Source: Trueperaceae bacterium (lineage in GTDB: Bacteria > Deinococcota > Deinococci > Deinococcales > Trueperaceae). Taken from it: a stretch of 64,000 nucleotides of DNA. Positions 52,387 to 61,013 of the stretch are shown piece after piece; position 1 is the stretch's first letter, and each line of letters begins with the position of its first letter. The stretch is from NCBI GenBank assembly GCA_023954415.1, contig JAMLIB010000006.1, positions 124,001-188,000 on the forward strand, read 5' to 3'. The translations under genes were made by a program, and so were the position numbers. A model generated the notes under the pieces. It had not been told where the DNA came from. It did no database searches and saw only the letters and a program-made list of their open reading frames with translations.

Positions 52387-53244
52387 ATGCATCGGGACCT
52401 TCGGGCGGCCGATGGGGGCGCAACCGCGCTAGTAGTGCTTCACAGGGGGCGGGATCAGCAAGGGATATGCGGTGCCATAAGCGCCGCGGGCTGGCACGTG
52501 GTGGTGGCAGCCAACGGCGAGGCGGCAGTCGCGCAAGCGCGGCTCACACTGCCAAGGTTAGTGGTAGTCGACGCCAACCTACCGAGGTTGCGCGACGGAC
52601 GTCACCCGGCCCAGGTGCTCGGGCGCCTGCGCGACGGTGGCGAGAGGGCGGAGCTCGTGCTCGTAGCGACCCGCAACGACGCCTACGTCGCCGGGCTGGC
52701 CAGCGTCGCCGGGGCCAAACGCATACTCCTAGCGACGGACGGCACGGTGACCGGCTACGGCGATGCCCACGCGCGGCACGCCCCTGAGACCATCCCTGGT
52801 CCAGAGGTCTGGATCGTCGACGACAGCCCCGCCATCCGGCTGTTGGCAAGGAGCGCGTTCCAGAGGGCCGGTTGGCAACCGACCGAGTTCGAGGACCTCC
52901 ATTCTGTCCAGGGAGCGCTCGCCGAGGGGCCGGCTCCCGCCGCCGTCGTCCTGGACGTCTACCTGCCCGACGGCAACGGCCTGCACCACGCCAGGGAGTT
53001 CGTCGAGCGCGGGGCTGCCGTCATCATGCTCAGCAACCTCGCTGGACCCGAGCAAGTGGAGCAGGCGTTCGCGGCCGGTGCGATCGACATCGTCGCCAAG
53101 CCGCTCGACATGCGCAGCCTCGTGGCGCGCGTGGCACGGGCCGTCGACCAGGCGAGTGGAACCGACCGCCTCGGCGACGGGAACGCGGTCGGCCCAAGCT
53201 ACTCGCCGGCAACGAACGGAACAGCGACCCTCGAAGCCATCTGA
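52387..53244 (+). CDS. Tandem-receiver response regulator without DNA-binding domain
   Basis: A 285-residue protein with two receiver domains and no output domain. The second (about 139-255) is complete: acidic pair Asp145-Asp146, phospho-acceptor Asp190 in VVLDVYLPDGNG, Ser216, and Lys238 in VAKPLD. The first (about 12-115) keeps an Asp62 in VVVDANLP but has lost the acidic pair (reads LHRGRDQQG), so it is probably a pseudo-receiver. No histidine kinase gene is adjacent. It is the first gene of a tight operon with a HEAT-repeat membrane protein and a glycosyltransferase, so it probably acts by protein contact on them (inference). Confidence 0.9.
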   Translation: MHRDLRAADGGATALVVLHRGRDQQGICGAISAAGWHVVVAANGEAAVAQARLTLPRLVVVDANLPRLRDGRHPAQVLGRLRDGGERAELVLVATRNDAYVAGLASVAGAKRILLATDGTVTGYGDAHARHAPETIPGPEVWIVDDSPAIRLLARSAFQRAGWQPTEFEDLHSVQGALAEGPAPAAVVLDVYLPDGNGLHHAREFVERGAAVIMLSNLAGPEQVEQAFAAGAIDIVAKPLDMRSLVARVARAVDQASGTDRLGDGNAVGPSYSPATNGTATLEAI

Positions 53245-54509
53245 TGCGCCGGGCGAAGCTGATCGTCATCTTCGTCCTGATACTCGCCGCCTCCACCACC
53301 GTCGCCATCACCATGGGCGCGCTCCTACTCAGGTACGGCACTACGGGTGCCGACCAGTCGGTCTCCTGGCGTTCGCTCGTCGTGGCCATGACCGGCGTCG
53401 GGGCAGCCATCGGCCTCATGACCATCGCCCACCTGTCCTTGTTCGCCGCGAGGCAGCTCGGCGCCGAACGGACGTCCAAGCGCACCGAGGCATGGTTGAG
53501 GACGTGGAGCGCGGTAGCGGCCGGTGGCGAGCCACCGGCGGTCGCGAAAGGCGAGTTGGTCGCGGCCTCGGAAGGGGCCTCTCTCCTCATGCAGGAAATC
53601 GAGGGGCGCGAGGCGGTCCGTCTTCGCGCGGCCCTCGACTCCGCCGGCGTGACCGGGAACGACCTACGCATCGCGGCAGCCGGAGGCACCGGGTCGACCG
53701 CGGGAGCTTCCGCCGCTCTCGAGCGCCTGGCCTGGGCCGCCGTGCCCGCCGCCATGCCCCTCTTCCGCAAGGCGGCTACCAGCCCGGAACCGCGCGTCGC
53801 CCAGGCGGCTTTGCTCGGCGCCTGTCGTGTGCTCGGAGCGCAGAGCGTTCCCGAGCCGCTCGGCCGCGACGTGGTCGCCGCCATCGTGGCGCATGCCGCC
53901 TCCGCTCGTGAACCGTACGGCTCACGAGCGTTCCTCGCCGCGGCCATGGCGACGACCGGCCGCCATCAGGCGTGGCTGGCGGCGACGCTGCTCGGGCGTC
54001 AGGCGCCCGAGGCCGTCAGGGCAGCCACGTTGGACGCCGTCGGGATAACACGCACGAGCGAGGCCGGAGCGGTCGTGTCCCAGTGGCTCGGCTCGAACCG
54101 CGGCTCCAGGCGCGCGGTCGAGGCCGAGGTCCTGTCCGCCGCCCTCAAGGCGCTCGCCCGTCTAGGGCATCTGGACGAGGCCGCCGAAGAAGCGGCCGTG
54201 GAGGCCACGCGGCACGAACGTACAGGCGTGCGCGTCCAGGCGGCGCACGCCCTCGTGGGTGCCACCCCGGAGCGCGCTCTGCCCGCCTTGTGGGAGTTGT
54301 TGGCCGACAAGGCGTTCGACGTGCGTCTCGCGGCCGCGACCGCGCTCACGGCGTGCGGCTCCACGGGGGAGGCGCTGCTCAAGCGCTGCGCGACGTCACA
54401 CCGCGACCCGTTCGCGATGGACATCGCCAGCCTCATGCGTTCCCGACGCGCGCCGGCGGCGCTCGAGACCTCCAAGCCGGCGGCGACCTACGCCTCGAGC
54501 GGAGACTGA
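53244..54509 (+). CDS. Membrane-anchored HEAT-repeat protein
   Basis: A 421-residue protein with two N-terminal membrane segments (LIVIFVLILAASTTVAITMGA, about 5-27; a second about 46-68) followed by a long alpha-solenoid of HEAT/PBS-type repeats (about 135-400; units such as EPRVAQAALLGACRVLGA and RTGVRVQAAHALVGATPE). The repeats should face the cytosol and bind partners. Its ATG overlaps the stop of the response regulator gene by one base (TGATG); the glycosyltransferase gene follows three bases after its end. Confidence 0.88.
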   Translation: MRRAKLIVIFVLILAASTTVAITMGALLLRYGTTGADQSVSWRSLVVAMTGVGAAIGLMTIAHLSLFAARQLGAERTSKRTEAWLRTWSAVAAGGEPPAVAKGELVAASEGASLLMQEIEGREAVRLRAALDSAGVTGNDLRIAAAGGTGSTAGASAALERLAWAAVPAAMPLFRKAATSPEPRVAQAALLGACRVLGAQSVPEPLGRDVVAAIVAHAASAREPYGSRAFLAAAMATTGRHQAWLAATLLGRQAPEAVRAATLDAVGITRTSEAGAVVSQWLGSNRGSRRAVEAEVLSAALKALARLGHLDEAAEEAAVEATRHERTGVRVQAAHALVGATPERALPALWELLADKAFDVRLAAATALTACGSTGEALLKRCATSHRDPFAMDIASLMRSRRAPAALETSKPAATYASSGD

Positions 54510-54512
54510 GCC

Positions 54513-55901
54513 GTGTCGCTGTCGGAAGTACTACAGCTCTTCGTCCTCCTCACCTTCCTCGTCATCAACGGCGGCAACACGGCCGCCATCGTCCTCGCCG
54601 CGAGGGCGAGCATGCAGCGGGAGCGGCGCGTCTCGACCCTCGAGGAGAAGGTCCTCATGCGCTCCGCGACCTACTTGCCCGTGAGCTTCCTAATCCCGGC
54701 CTACAACGAGGAAGCGACGATCGTAGAGAGCCTCCAGAGCCTGCTCGCCATGCACTACCCGGAGTTCGAGGTGATCGTGACCAACGACGGCTCCAAGGAC
54801 GGCACCATGGCGGCGATGGCGGAAGCCTTCGAGCTCGTCCCGTGCCTGCCGAGCCCCCGGCGGTTCACCTCGCATACGACCGTGCGAACGGCGTACCGCA
54901 GCAGGACGCGCTCCAACCTGTTCGTCCTCGACAAGGTGAACGGAGGCCGAGCCGACGCGCTCAACGCGGCCCTCGAGCAGGCGCGCTATCCCGTGGTCGT
55001 GCTCACGGACGCGGACAGCCTCATCGATCCCGAAGCGCTCCAGCGCGCAGGCACGCGTTTCCTGGACGAACCCTCGCTCGTGGCGCTCGGGGGCACCATC
55101 AGGGTCGTGAACGAGGCCGACGTGGTCGACGGGGCGGTGGTGCGGCCGCGCACGCCGCGCAACTTCATCGCTCGGTGGCAGCTCCTCGAGTACCTGCGCG
55201 CGTTCATCACCGCTCGGGCCGCCATGAGCCAGGTCGGCTGCCTGATCTCGGTCTCAGGGGCGTTCGGGATCTTCCGTCGGAGCGCGTTGCTGAGCGTCGG
55301 CGGGCTGCGAACGGACACCGTCGGCGAGGACCTGGAGCTGACGATCAGGCTTCACCGTCACTTCCGCGACCTGAAACTGCCGTACCGGATCGAGTTCATG
55401 CTCGACCCGGTGTGCTGGACGCAGGTTCCGGAGGAAGCCAAGGTGCTTGCCAGGCAGCGCGACCGGTGGCACCGCGGCCTGTTCGAGGCGCTGTGGGCGC
55501 ACCGCGGCATGCTGTTCCGCAGGAGCTACGGTCTGATCGGCAGCATGGCGCTGCCGTACGCCTGGTACGTGGAGGGCCTCTCGCCCGTCCTCGAGGTCTC
55601 CGGCTACCTGACCATCATCCTCATGGCCGTGCTCGGGACCTTGGACTGGCCGTTCGTAGGCGCCTTCCTGGCGCTCTCCGTCGGCTACGGCACCCTGGTC
55701 GGCCTCGCCAGCGCCGCACTCGACCAGACGCTGCCACACTCGCCCAAGAGCGCCGGCGACCGCTACCGGCTGTTCATCGCCGTGATGACCGAGAACCTCG
55801 GCTACCGCCAGTGGCTGGCCGTCGTGCGGGTGCTGGCCATGTTCAAGATCAAGAGCAGCAGGGGCAAGTGGGGGGCGATGACCAGGCGGCGGTTCAGTTG
55901 A
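54513..55901 (+). CDS. Processive membrane glycosyltransferase, family GT2
   Basis: A 462-residue inner-membrane polysaccharide synthase of the PgaC/HasA/BcsA type. One N-terminal membrane segment (about 6-30) precedes the GT2 catalytic domain with the complete motif set: Asp92 in NDGSKDGT, DAD at 166-168, GED at 271-273 and Q315-R-D-R-W319 (QxxRW). Several membrane segments follow (about 345-425). No PilZ domain is present. The start is GTG. It is the output gene of the receiver-HEAT-GT2 operon and probably makes an exopolysaccharide; the sugar is unknown. Confidence 0.9.
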   Translation: MSLSEVLQLFVLLTFLVINGGNTAAIVLAARASMQRERRVSTLEEKVLMRSATYLPVSFLIPAYNEEATIVESLQSLLAMHYPEFEVIVTNDGSKDGTMAAMAEAFELVPCLPSPRRFTSHTTVRTAYRSRTRSNLFVLDKVNGGRADALNAALEQARYPVVVLTDADSLIDPEALQRAGTRFLDEPSLVALGGTIRVVNEADVVDGAVVRPRTPRNFIARWQLLEYLRAFITARAAMSQVGCLISVSGAFGIFRRSALLSVGGLRTDTVGEDLELTIRLHRHFRDLKLPYRIEFMLDPVCWTQVPEEAKVLARQRDRWHRGLFEALWAHRGMLFRRSYGLIGSMALPYAWYVEGLSPVLEVSGYLTIILMAVLGTLDWPFVGAFLALSVGYGTLVGLASAALDQTLPHSPKSAGDRYRLFIAVMTENLGYRQWLAVVRVLAMFKIKSSRGKWGAMTRRRFS

Positions 55902-55977: not shown

Positions 55978-57027
55978 TCACCAGTCCTCGATGTCCTCCC
56001 CGATGGACTGCGCGCTGATCTTGGCGTAGATGCGCGTGGTCTGGATGTCCGCGTGCCGCAGATGGGCCGCGACCCTGCCGAGGTCGCCGGTCTGACGGTA
56101 GTAGCGGGTACCCGCGCCGTGGCGCAGGCCATGCACGCCCGCGCTCGCGTACTCCACACCGGCCAGAGCGCAGACACGCTTGAACCTCCGCCTGGCGTGG
56201 TCAGCCGCCCAAGGCAGCACCAGGCCCGGGTCTCGCTGCCTGTTCTTGCCGTTGTGACCGGACATATCGACGAGCCTGAGGTCAGAAAGCGCGTCCCTGA
56301 GGCGCTTAGTGAGGCTGACGGTCGCGGCCTTGCCGCCTTTGCCGGAGCGCACGCGCAGCTGACCGCGCTCCAGGTCGAGGTCGGTCCACCCGAGGTCGGT
56401 CATCTCCGAGATCCGAAGGCCGGCGTGGGCGCCGAGGAGCACGACGACCTTCTCGGCCGGGTCGGCGAACTCCAGGAGCGCCTCGACCTCGTCGTCGCTA
56501 TAGGGGCGGCGTTTCTCCCACGCCGGCGTCGGGTCCTTGGCGACCCTGACGTCGTCGAACGGGCGCGCTTCCGTCGCGCCCGCCCAGCGCAGGGCCTTGT
56601 AGAGCGTGCGAGCCGCGGCGAGCTTCACCTGTAAGGACGCCGGGCTGAGCGGTTCGTCCTTGGCGCCGTCGGGTGCACGCTTGGTCTTGGCGGGCTGCAG
56701 AGCGGCCGGCGGCGGCCCGGCCTCGAGGCGCCGCATGTAGACCACGCCGGCGTCCCGGCTCGGGCGCAGGAGGTTCTCGCCGGCCCAGGCCTCGACGAGG
56801 TCGAGGACGCCGCGCCGGTACGTGCGCAGCGTGTGCCGGCTGACCTTGGCGCCACGCGAACCGTGCAGGAAGAGGTACGCTTCGGTCAGGGCCCAGAGCT
56901 GCTCGGCGTCGCGGTTAGCGGCCGCGCTGGCGGCTCTGCGCTTGAGCTCCTCGGGCGGCAGCGCGGCCCAAGACTCGGCGCGGGCGAGCGTGTCGGTGCT
57001 GCGGGCGACTTCGATCTCCGGTCTCAT
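55978..57027 (-). CDS. Tyrosine recombinase/integrase
   Basis: A 349-residue tyrosine recombinase. An N-terminal SAM-like core-binding domain (about 40-150) precedes the catalytic domain with all active residues: Arg205 in GLRISEM, a lysine near 232, His299-x-x-Arg302 in HGLRHG, His325 in HLRHAD and nucleophile Tyr334. It could be a XerC/D-type resolvase or the integrase of an element; location at the edge of the accessory region favours the latter but no att duplicate was found. TAAACT ends six bases before the ATG. Confidence 0.92.
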   Translation of the reverse strand: MRPEIEVARSTDTLARAESWAALPPEELKRRAASAAANRDAEQLWALTEAYLFLHGSRGAKVSRHTLRTYRRGVLDLVEAWAGENLLRPSRDAGVVYMRRLEAGPPPAALQPAKTKRAPDGAKDEPLSPASLQVKLAAARTLYKALRWAGATEARPFDDVRVAKDPTPAWEKRRPYSDDEVEALLEFADPAEKVVVLLGAHAGLRISEMTDLGWTDLDLERGQLRVRSGKGGKAATVSLTKRLRDALSDLRLVDMSGHNGKNRQRDPGLVLPWAADHARRRFKRVCALAGVEYASAGVHGLRHGAGTRYYRQTGDLGRVAAHLRHADIQTTRIYAKISAQSIGEDIEDW

Positions 57028-57298: not shown

Positions 57299-58708
57299 AT
57301 GAATGATCTTGCTGCTAGGCATCTGCGAGAACTTGACCTTGAACCGACCGCAACAGTGTCCGATATCAAACGGGCATTTAGGCAGCTGGCACTCGTATGG
57401 CATCCCGACCGCTTCTCTGGCAATGAGCAGTTGCGGGCCGCGGCCGAGCGAAAGATGGCCAGAATCAACGCGGCTCGGGCATGGCTTCTTGACAACCTGA
57501 GCGAATGGGGACCTCAGGCTCAGGAACCGCGACCAAGCCATACCTCTGGTCCGCACGCCGGGGCAGGCAAGCCGCATGCAGCACAACCTAAGACGGGACC
57601 TCGATACCCGGGATCGCATCACCCGCCAACCCAGCCGAGCTCCACAACGTCCAAACATCCATCGAAGCGAGGACCAAGCCTCGGCGGTATTCTTTTCATT
57701 GTCGCACTCATTTCTGTCCCTACGATTCGAGCACTGTCAGGCAGTGGATCCAACTCGGGGACCACGTACCAGCCCGCTCCTAGATCAAGTACTACGCCGT
57801 CAGCCGTGCCGCGGGCTCGGTTTCCGACCAACACAGTCCCCACAATGCCTACCTTCCCATCGACCAGTGGAGTTCAGCCCACCGTCGGGCAATCGGCTTC
57901 AGAAGTCACACCGGCGTCTTCAAGTACCCTCGCCACAGAGCCAGCGCCGTTCGGGTCGTCTTCGACTGCCCAAACTCACTCTGTAGTCGTGGTTCCCGGA
58001 GACTCGCTTTGGCAGATTGCTCAGGCCAATGGTGTCGCAGTAGACGACATCATTCGGGCTAACGGTCTTACCAGCACTGTCATTGTGCCAGGGCAAGTCT
58101 TGAACGTTCCGAGTCGTGAGGCACAAGCGTCAGTACCCCTCCAACCTTCTTCAGGTGACAGTGCAGTTCGTCAACCAGACGCATCAAGCCCAAATAGTCT
58201 GCAGCCAATGGCAACAGAGTCCAGTCCTCCGGTCGCTACCGAGGCACTTCCGTCCGTGCCGTCCCAACCTGCTGAGCCCCAGGCTAGCAGTACTCCTCCA
58301 AGTGTAACAGTCGCGCCGCTTGGTGAGCCCACTGAGTCCCCGCCTGCAGGCCTCCCGATTGCAGGGACCGCGAGTGACTCCGCATCACCGCCCGTGGGTG
58401 CAAGGGCCGCCCAGACTGCTCCCAGTAGCCTTCTCGATTCGAGGACTTCTGAAGCAGTTCCTCTTGGAGATGCCGCAAGTAGCAGCGGAGTACCTGCCGC
58501 AGGGACCGCTGCATCGGCGGCAGGGGCTGAGTCGACTATTACGCCGGAGTCGCCATCCGCAATTGCGGCTGCCCTCTCCCCCGACCTCTCAAGCTTCACC
58601 GCAGAAGAACGCCGCATCATCGAAAGCCAATGCTCCAGCGCACGGTCCCTCCGAGGCCTAGCCGCCTACAACCAATGCCTAATCAGTCAGTTGACCGACC
58701 TTCAGTGA
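57299..58708 (+). CDS. J-domain/transmembrane/LysM fusion protein
   Basis: A 469-residue protein of unusual architecture. A J domain (about 5-65) with an intact HPD motif (His35 in VWHPDRFSG) faces the cytosol. A Pro/His-rich linker leads to one membrane segment (129-146, GGILFIVALISVPTIRALSG). Outside lie Ser/Thr/Pro-rich linkers around a LysM peptidoglycan-binding domain (227-271, VVPGDSLWQIAQANGV). The last 35 residues (FTAEERRIIESQCSSARS then AAYNQCL) form a small conserved-looking module with two cysteines. Codon use is clearly less GC-biased than in the left part of the window, suggesting acquisition by transfer. Confidence 0.85.
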   Translation: MNDLAARHLRELDLEPTATVSDIKRAFRQLALVWHPDRFSGNEQLRAAAERKMARINAARAWLLDNLSEWGPQAQEPRPSHTSGPHAGAGKPHAAQPKTGPRYPGSHHPPTQPSSTTSKHPSKRGPSLGGILFIVALISVPTIRALSGSGSNSGTTYQPAPRSSTTPSAVPRARFPTNTVPTMPTFPSTSGVQPTVGQSASEVTPASSSTLATEPAPFGSSSTAQTHSVVVVPGDSLWQIAQANGVAVDDIIRANGLTSTVIVPGQVLNVPSREAQASVPLQPSSGDSAVRQPDASSPNSLQPMATESSPPVATEALPSVPSQPAEPQASSTPPSVTVAPLGEPTESPPAGLPIAGTASDSASPPVGARAAQTAPSSLLDSRTSEAVPLGDAASSSGVPAAGTAASAAGAESTITPESPSAIAAALSPDLSSFTAEERRIIESQCSSARSLRGLAAYNQCLISQLTDLQ

Positions 58709-59093: not shown

Positions 59094-59159
59094 TAAGGAG
59101 TTAGCTCCCCGGAGGTGGGACGATGGGTTTTGAGAGTTGGTTGTCGGAACTGTTTGACA

Positions 59160-61013
59160 AGGACGTCTCTGATCGCCGGGGAGGAGCGAACGCGCGAGGT
59201 CTTCGGCGATTACGTGTCGATCTACAACTTCCGCCAATCCATCGAGGACAAGGCCACCGTTCCCCTCTACTACGAGAACCGGTCGCCTGAGGTGCAGCTC
59301 GTCAACCCCGACTTCAACCGCGACATGGAGAGGATCCTCGAGGAGGCCGCACTCGACCAAGACCAAGAGCAGCGCCTGGCCCGGGAGTTCGGGCGTGAGT
59401 ACCACCTGATTACCGACGACGACCGGCTCGACACTATCGCTACCGACCTGGTCGACCACTTCGTGTCGCGCGGCTACCATGGCAAGGCGATGGTGGTCTC
59501 CATCGACAAAGCCACCGCCGTGAAGATGTTCGACAAGGTTCAGGCGGAGTGGCAGCGCCGTATCGACACGCTAAGTGCCGACGTCAGTGCCGCCGCAGGT
59601 GAACATCGCCAGGCACTAACGGACAAGCTGTTCGAGATGACCGACACCAACATGGCGGTAGTGGTCTCCCCTTCCCGGAACGAGATCGCCGACATGAGGG
59701 CCAAGGGCGTCGACATCGAGCCGCACCGCAGGCGGATGGTGGCAGAAGACCTCGACGGGAAGTTCAAGGACCCCAGCGACCCGCTGCGGATCGTGTTCCT
59801 GTGCGCCATGTGGCTGACCGGCTTCGACGCACCCGCCACCTCGACCATCTACCTCGACAAGCCGATGCGCAACCACACCCTCATGCAGACCATCGCACGC
59901 GCCAACCGCGTGATGGCCGGTAAGCAGGCTGGCGAGATCATCGACTACATCGGCGTGTTCCGCAACTTACAGGACGCGTTGGCACTGTACGGGTCCGGGT
60001 CTGGCGGGGGCGTCGAGCCGGGTGACCTTCCCGTGGAGGCCAAGGAGGAGCAGGCAGAGGACTTAGCAGGGATGCTCGCTGACGTCGAAGATCATGCCAG
60101 TGCCCACGGCGTGAACCTCAAGCAGGGCATCGGTGTAGCCGGGTTCGACTGGGTCGCGTGGCTGGCAGGAGCCGCCGAAAAGCTCCTCGTCTCCGACGAG
60201 GTTCGCAGGGGCTTCCTCGCCCGCGCGGACCTATGCGCCGGCCAGTGGAAGGCGGTCAAACCGCACCCAGCCGCCACCGACGCCCAGCCGCTCATGTCCG
60301 TCATCGTGAGGCTGGCCCAACGGATCCGCATGGTGACCGGCAAACCCGACATCTCTGGGGTCATGGCGTCTGTCGAACGGCTGCTCCAGGAATCGGTCGA
60401 CGCGATGCCGTTCGTGATCGACCCAGCAGAAACGGCACGGTTCGACCTGAGCGAGGTCGACTTCGACGCCCTCGCCGAACTGTTCGCACAGGGCAAGCGG
60501 CACACCGCGGCAGCACCCCTACAGGCCACGCTCGAGCAGCGCCTCGCACGGATGGTGCGCGAGAGCCCAAGCCGGATCGAGTTCGCCGAGAAACTACAGG
60601 AGGTCATCGACCGCTACAACGAGGGTTCCAAGAACATCGAGTCGTTCTTCGAGGAGCTCAAGGCTCTGGCGGGTTCATTGAGCGAAGAGGATCAGCGGGC
60701 GGTACGGGAGGAGCTTTCAGAGGAGGAGCTCGCCGTGTTCGACCTCCTCATCAAGCCAGACCCGACCCTCACCATGGCGCAGGAGGCGATGGTCAAGAAG
60801 GTCGCCCGGGACCTCGTCTACAAGCTCAAGTGCGACCTCCCCGTGCTCGACTGGAAGCAGCGGCAGGCGACCCTGGCTGCCGTGAAGGTAGAGACGCTCG
60901 ACGAGTGCCTACCAGACGTGTACGACCGGGCGCTGTTCGCTCGGAAGTCGGCCGCTGTGTTCGAGCACGTGTTTGCGGCTTACGAAAGTGGCGGCCGGTC
61001 CATCTATGGGTAG
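59160..61013 (+). pseudogene. hsdR: 5'-truncated hsdR (type I restriction subunit)
   Basis: About 615 codons of the C-terminal part of a type I restriction subunit. The similarity begins abruptly at LIAGEERTREVFGDYVSIYN, which normally follows the helicase TGTP motif. The second RecA domain (RIVFLCAMWLTGFDAPATS, HTLMQTIARANRV) and the C-terminal helical region are present, ending naturally. The nuclease domain and the Walker A/B helicase motifs are gone, so it cannot restrict DNA. A possible GTG start at 59115 precedes non-homologous sequence; the frame itself is undamaged, so a fragment could be made. Confidence 0.85.

Follow-up and report, generated by a model that had tools for sequence, protein, structure and literature searches.

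A receiver, a HEAT-solenoid membrane protein and a GT2 synthase in a Trueperaceae bacterium belong to a widespread and apparently unnamed gene module

The window, a 64,000-nucleotide stretch of contig JAMLIB010000006.1 from a Trueperaceae bacterium, carries three adjoining genes on its forward strand that encode a response regulator (RR), a membrane protein built on a HEAT solenoid and a GT2 glycosyltransferase. The genes and their features are as follows.

52387..53244 (+): RR gene, 285 aa, ATG start (ORF call; Pfam Response_reg, 3.9e-21)
52411..52776 (+): degenerate receiver 1, spanning residues ~9-130 (from the alignment of 78 partner receivers)
52801..53151 (+): canonical receiver 2, spanning residues ~139-255, with D145, D146, D190, S216 and K238 present
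52954..52956 (+): codon of Asp190, the predicted phosphoacceptor (Asp in 72/78 partner receivers)
53244..54509 (+): HEAT-solenoid membrane protein gene, 421 aa, ATG start (ORF call; HEAT_2, 3.6e-9)
53247..53453 (+): two hydrophobic helices at the N terminus (residues ~2-32 and ~41-70), predicted to form a transmembrane hairpin (hydropathy)
53538..54470 (+): alpha-solenoid spanning residues ~99-409, its repeats best supported at ~291-400 (model, PDB fold matches)
54513..55901 (+): GT2 synthase gene, 462 aa, GTG start, no PilZ (ORF call; Pfam)
54828..54911 (+): clade-specific insertion 1, GT2 residues about 106-133 (anchored interval; alignment A3)
55110..55154 (+): clade-specific insertion 2, GT2 residues about 200-214 (anchored interval)
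55455..55469 (+): QRDRW, residues 315-319, the QxxRW of processive GT2 synthases (sequence)

The packing is as tight as the initial annotation had claimed: base 53244 is common to the TGA stop of the RR gene and the ATG of the HEAT gene, a one-base overlap, and three bases separate the HEAT gene from the GT2 gene. Pfam assigns the window neighbours to SMC, biotin-protein ligase, receiver, HEAT, integrase and DnaJ-LysM proteins. A simple scan found no promoter or terminator at the locus and no histidine kinase adjoins the triad; 12 HisKA matches above cut-off are present in the window's genome. A tyrosine recombinase gene (window 55978-57027, reverse strand) adjoins the triad and is kept there in four relatives (L114, L115, L116 and L118). 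The single ORF at 57299-58708 unusually combines DnaJ at its N terminus (8e-9) with a stretch rich in Ser, Thr and Pro and a LysM domain (1.3e-14), and the type I restriction HsdR-like protein at 59115-61013 starts within its SWI2/SNF2 ATPase domain, at profile position 150 of 221, and therefore looks 5'-truncated.

The RR consists of a degenerate pseudo-receiver, a canonical receiver and a 30-residue tail, with no output domain. Its earlier description as a tandem receiver was correct as to the presence of two receivers, but only the second is canonical. In the alignment with 78 partner receivers, receiver 1 retains Asp at the phospho-site; it is classed as a degenerate pseudo-receiver because the acidic pair is missing and a gap falls at the lysine position. 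The best Response_reg stretch (RR residues 141-249) lies in receiver 2, where the set of phosphorylation residues is complete. Pfam detected no HTH, PilZ or other output domain in the three window proteins and, above cut-off, nothing except receivers in the RR, in agreement with the proposal of a phosphorylatable receiver without DNA-binding output; with complete phosphorylation residues and no output domain, the protein is a single-domain response regulator. It resembles the CheY/Spo0F type in both of these respects, but it is encoded with a synthase, carries a pseudo-receiver and has a target that is putative. Among the partner receivers, the Lys is kept in 75/78, alongside the phosphoacceptor Asp in 72/78, and 72 of the 78 nearest partner receivers lack an output domain. 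Most relatives from other genera have one receiver per protein; three relatives of the window's own genus share receiver 1, and G092 and G082 have a single receiver.

The second protein matches HEAT_2 (3.6e-9) and HEAT in Pfam. Its AlphaFold2 model is all-helical and of moderate confidence (pLDDT 69.4), with N-terminal helices at residues 2-32 and 41-92, and these observations, together with the two N-terminal hydrophobic helices, support the suggestion that it is a membrane-bound HEAT solenoid. The predicted hairpin would place the solenoid in the cytoplasm. As the PDB fold matches are generic solenoids (alphaRep, importin-alpha and PP2A-type) and the model is of moderate confidence, they support a fold class and not a partner.

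The third protein matches Glyco_tranf_2_3 (4.4e-24) and Glycos_transf_2 (1.3e-21) in Pfam and has the broad characteristics of a processive membrane GT2, namely, D166/D168, E272-D273, QRDRW at residues 315-319 and flanking membrane helices; Q315, R316, R318 and W319 are invariant in GT2 alignment A1. The AlphaFold2 model is good (pLDDT 89.2, pTM 0.89), with helices at 3-48, 337-373, 379-404 and 414-444, and its PDB fold matches are hyaluronan (leading), cellulose and chitin synthases. No PilZ domain was matched by Pfam and the protein ends right after the membrane helices; the view that this is a complete GT2 synthase without PilZ was upheld, the DxD, ED and QxxRW motifs and the membrane helices all being present. 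A GT2 that is not a polymerase, transferring single sugars onto lipid or protein while the HEAT protein acts as an acceptor-presenting scaffold, seems distinctly improbable to us. Some related GT2 families are non-processive, and no dedicated precursor genes adjoin the window copy, but the QxxRW motif, the membrane helices flanking the catalytic domain, the hyaluronan, cellulose and chitin synthase folds and a best NCBIfam match to PgaC/IcaA all point to polymerization, as do the YaiO barrels and nucleotide-sugar genes that adjoin copies elsewhere.

The PgaC/IcaA match (TIGR03937) reached 136.9 bits against a cut-off of 422.3, CelA reached 48.1 bits against 699.1, and the window GT2 also fell below the NodC cut-off. 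With PgaC/IcaA it shares the character of a membrane GT2 with DxD and QxxRW; in contrast, it lies in a separate clade with two insertions and has a HEAT partner in place of PgaD/IcaD, and neither a PgaB deacetylase nor PgaD/IcaD was recognized among the window neighbours. Hyaluronan synthases (chlorella virus and Xenopus structures) are the best PDB fold matches, with a TM-score of about 0.6, but identity is 13-17% and the likeness is one of fold; hyaluronan synthases are single-chain enzymes, whereas the window GT2 has a dedicated HEAT partner. BcsA cellulose synthase has the same processive GT2 fold, and its direct control after translation provides the analogy; the window GT2 lacks PilZ, the locus lacks BcsB, and a receiver and a HEAT protein stand in place of c-di-GMP.

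The HEAT-linked GT2s are set apart as one clade by a branch that has an SH-aLRT value of 100 and a long stem, insertion columns having been excluded. A first tree with all long-branch outsiders required two changes for the clade label; when the set was reduced to contain fewer long branches and a mixture model was applied, one change was enough. The window GT2 falls in a 10-row set (support, 99) with the copy on a Deinococcus radiophilus plasmid (L134) and further sequences from its own group. Across 99 members and 64 outsiders, the anchored interval of insertion 1 measures 41-45 residues in the former and 13-23 in the latter, and that of insertion 2 measures 20 residues in every member and 5-12 in the outsiders, so that the two divide members from outsiders with no overlap and are unique among the sequences compared. 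That these insertions contact the HEAT protein is a guess. A subclade made up of L142, L260, L261 and L269, which includes Legionella adelaidensis and has HEAT-GT2 and YaiO-type barrels but no receiver at its loci, branches apart in the tree.

The initial annotation had staked its reading on the three genes being conserved together in relatives, a check that this reading passed and that supports it in part: we found linkage of HEAT and GT2 to be near-absolute within the clade and lacking outside it, and that of the receiver to be frequent. Among 98 clade loci with wide flanks, a HEAT gene lies directly upstream on the same strand in 92 and is fused to the GT2 in 4; in L255, HEAT and YaiO are convergent, and L122 has a GT2 but no HEAT. 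Short-flank loci (n = 101) gave 89 with HEAT adjacent, 8 fusions and 4 cut by a contig end. No HEAT gene was found near any of 74 more distant, outsider GT2 loci. In 78/98 clade loci, versus 2 outsiders, a receiver gene is located within 4 kb upstream and in the same orientation. Fisher tests of these contrasts gave p < 1e-39 for HEAT (with a conservative 68 controls) and p = 3e-25 for the receiver, values that only rank the contrast because the outsiders were not matched by taxon, some of their flanks were short and the clade loci are related and hence non-independent. The window locus, with both insertions and a HEAT gene directly upstream, belongs to the module that these features (or a HEAT fusion) define.

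In the close relatives L114-L118, the triad is unchanged in order and strand, and in four of the five it is preceded by SMC and biotin-protein ligase genes. The GT2 proteins of triads are 70-99% identical within the genus and 32-48% identical when the triad, its gene order unchanged, comes from a distant phylum, which argues that the triad does not result from chance. A chance neighbourhood, or a PgaC/IcaA-type locus of the ordinary kind whose neighbours are unrelated, could appeal to PgaC_IcaA being the best NCBIfam match, but the score of less than a third of the cut-off, the separate clade with its own insertions and the near-constant linkage to HEAT across phyla make this explanation extremely improbable.

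HEAT and GT2 are also joined covalently. In eight Bacilli genomes (L212-L219), the GT2 frame extends upstream, by ~480 residues in seven of the eight, into an N-terminal hydrophobic helix and a HEAT-like helical-repeat solenoid continuous with the GT2. Pfam does not name this extension HEAT; it nevertheless aligns with the stand-alone HEAT family over ~320 positions, from membrane helix through solenoid (hmmsearch within a set of 7 sequences, 1.9e-18; hhalign, probability 97 across 332 columns). L127 was considered as a further fusion and rejected, as two overlapping frames suggest a frameshift in its HEAT gene. The four fused loci with wide flanks (L284-L287) have a receiver just upstream in which Glu replaces the phosphoacceptor Asp; phospho-control is therefore not universal, and receiver control may be locked in the fused lineage.

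HEAT-GT2 loci with no nearby receiver, comprising the four of the Legionella adelaidensis lineage and several others, put the receiver outside the minimal machine; judged by gene content, the core is HEAT-GT2 and the receiver is a frequent but optional addition. Histidine-kinase matches lie within 6 kb of 33/98 clade loci, and Hpt genes adjoin the Mesorhizobium and Devosia copies. In many diderm copies, YaiO-type beta-barrel proteins share the gene string, an arrangement fitting putative export; no YaiO match was found in the window's genome. The downstream genes, sulfatase-like in 5 of 79 cases, YaiO in 4, histidine kinase in 4 and epimerase in 3, form a mixture from which no polymer can be named.

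This is not a single odd operon but a widespread module. A scan of contigs and plasmid records found receiver, HEAT and GT2 genes, with or without a beta-barrel gene, in Cellulomonas, Burkholderiales, Woeseiaceae, Syntrophomonadaceae, Melioribacter, Mesorhizobium, Erythrobacter and haloarchaea, and HEAT-GT2 without a receiver in Planococcus, Legionella adelaidensis and Bacteroides finegoldii. Profile A1, built from 25 GT2 sequences of that scan and then searched in sampled genomes, matched 64/247 Bacteroidota, 37/198 Actinomycetota, 14/274 Gammaproteobacteria and 5/240 Alphaproteobacteria, as well as 9/247 genomes from the phylum of a Methanomicrobiales genome, 9/195 from that of an uncultured Bacilli genome and 1/151 from that of an Anaerolineae genome, each sampled group being named after the genome at its centre. 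In the window's own group, searched as its phylum, 38/111 genomes had a GT2 match at E <= 4e-66. GT2 relatives by profile thus occur in Deinococcota, Bacteroidota, Actinomycetota, Bacilli, Alpha- and Gammaproteobacteria, Chloroflexota and haloarchaea; the module was detected in about one-quarter of sampled Bacteroidota, one-fifth of Actinomycetota and one-third of the window's phylum and reaches haloarchaea too.

Sequence evidence strongly supports the constant HEAT-GT2 pairing with its fusions, the processive-type fold and the intact, output-less receiver. Beyond these, we infer complex formation, docking on the insertions, receiver binding, a direction of control, a polymer and its export. 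Hyaluronan and cellulose synthases polymerize at the cytoplasmic face and pass the chain through their membrane helices; similarly, the GT2 would polymerize a nucleotide-activated sugar at the cytoplasmic face and the chain would pass through its own membrane helices. The HEAT protein would be anchored beside it by the N-terminal helices, its cytoplasmic solenoid serving as an obligate partner subunit and perhaps docking against the clade-specific insertions. Phosphate would reach Asp190 from a histidine kinase or a phosphotransfer protein whose gene lies elsewhere, and the phosphorylated receiver would alter contact with the HEAT-synthase pair, turning synthesis up or down without recourse to transcription or c-di-GMP. 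The prevalence of output-less receivers (72/78) is consistent with contact rather than transcription, and PilZ is lacking. Taken as a whole, the best explanation, and one that we consider probable, is that the synthase has in HEAT an obligate partner on the cytoplasmic side and that the receiver controls the pair by contact.

The HEAT protein could alternatively be a structural or assembly subunit, concerned with stability, oligomerization or export coupling, while the receiver acts elsewhere or merely marks co-expression with a signalling locus. The near-invariance of HEAT-GT2, the absence of the receiver from a sizeable minority of loci and the fusions, in which HEAT is fixed to the enzyme, would all suit such a role; no other additional partner is as common as the receiver, however, which occurs in several bacterial phyla as well as archaea, mostly within the same gene string and output-less, and we consider a purely structural subunit rather unlikely. 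Contact control of the HEAT-synthase pair remains the reading that we favour, and because the pair is kept together, usually with a receiver, across diverse bacteria and some archaea, it looks like a general, direct polysaccharide switch. More tentatively, and with somewhat less conviction than doubt, we suggest an ancient synthase class of bacteria and archaea in which the HEAT subunit would let the phosphorylation state of a stand-alone receiver set the activity of the synthase.

The best-known switches for bacterial synthases of the GT2 type are c-di-GMP and transcription, and on this more tentative reading, the receiver-HEAT module would be a two-component counterpart to the c-di-GMP/PilZ control of cellulose synthase. 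NfrB and the MshEN/EpsE-domain GT2 synthases, such as Sfz2, likewise combine a GT2 synthase with a dedicated control module. Sfz2 of Zetaproteobacteria has an N-terminal EpsE-like domain and a partner, Sfz1, with c-di-GMP-binding motifs (PMC8250860); a HEAT protein or receiver partner is not among the features described for Sfz in the part of that account consulted, and the sfz cluster was rejected as a published form of the module, being a different system. The open-access literature searched contained no description of a receiver-HEAT-GT2 module, which bears out the remark that no named system has this composition: the kind of enzyme is known, and the module, with its dedicated HEAT subunit and usual receiver, appears to be unnamed. 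A whole GT2 clade thus has a near-obligate scaffold of its own and, in most of the loci analysed, an output-less receiver. Should receiver control be confirmed, two-component signalling would act directly on polymer synthesis, and many genes annotated "HEAT repeat protein" or "glycosyltransferase" would acquire a role open to testing; compact experimental systems are available in the fusions and in versions with a single receiver.

Two copies have distinctive surroundings. In Planococcus maritimus (L140, 888-5838), HEAT-GT2 lies after genes for polyphosphate-polymerase-domain, DUF4956 and CotH-kinase proteins, and a receiver is lacking. In Halosolutus (L135, 8555-11529), a sugar-phosphate nucleotidyltransferase gene and glmS come after the triad-like genes, a hint that the precursor there may be an amino sugar.
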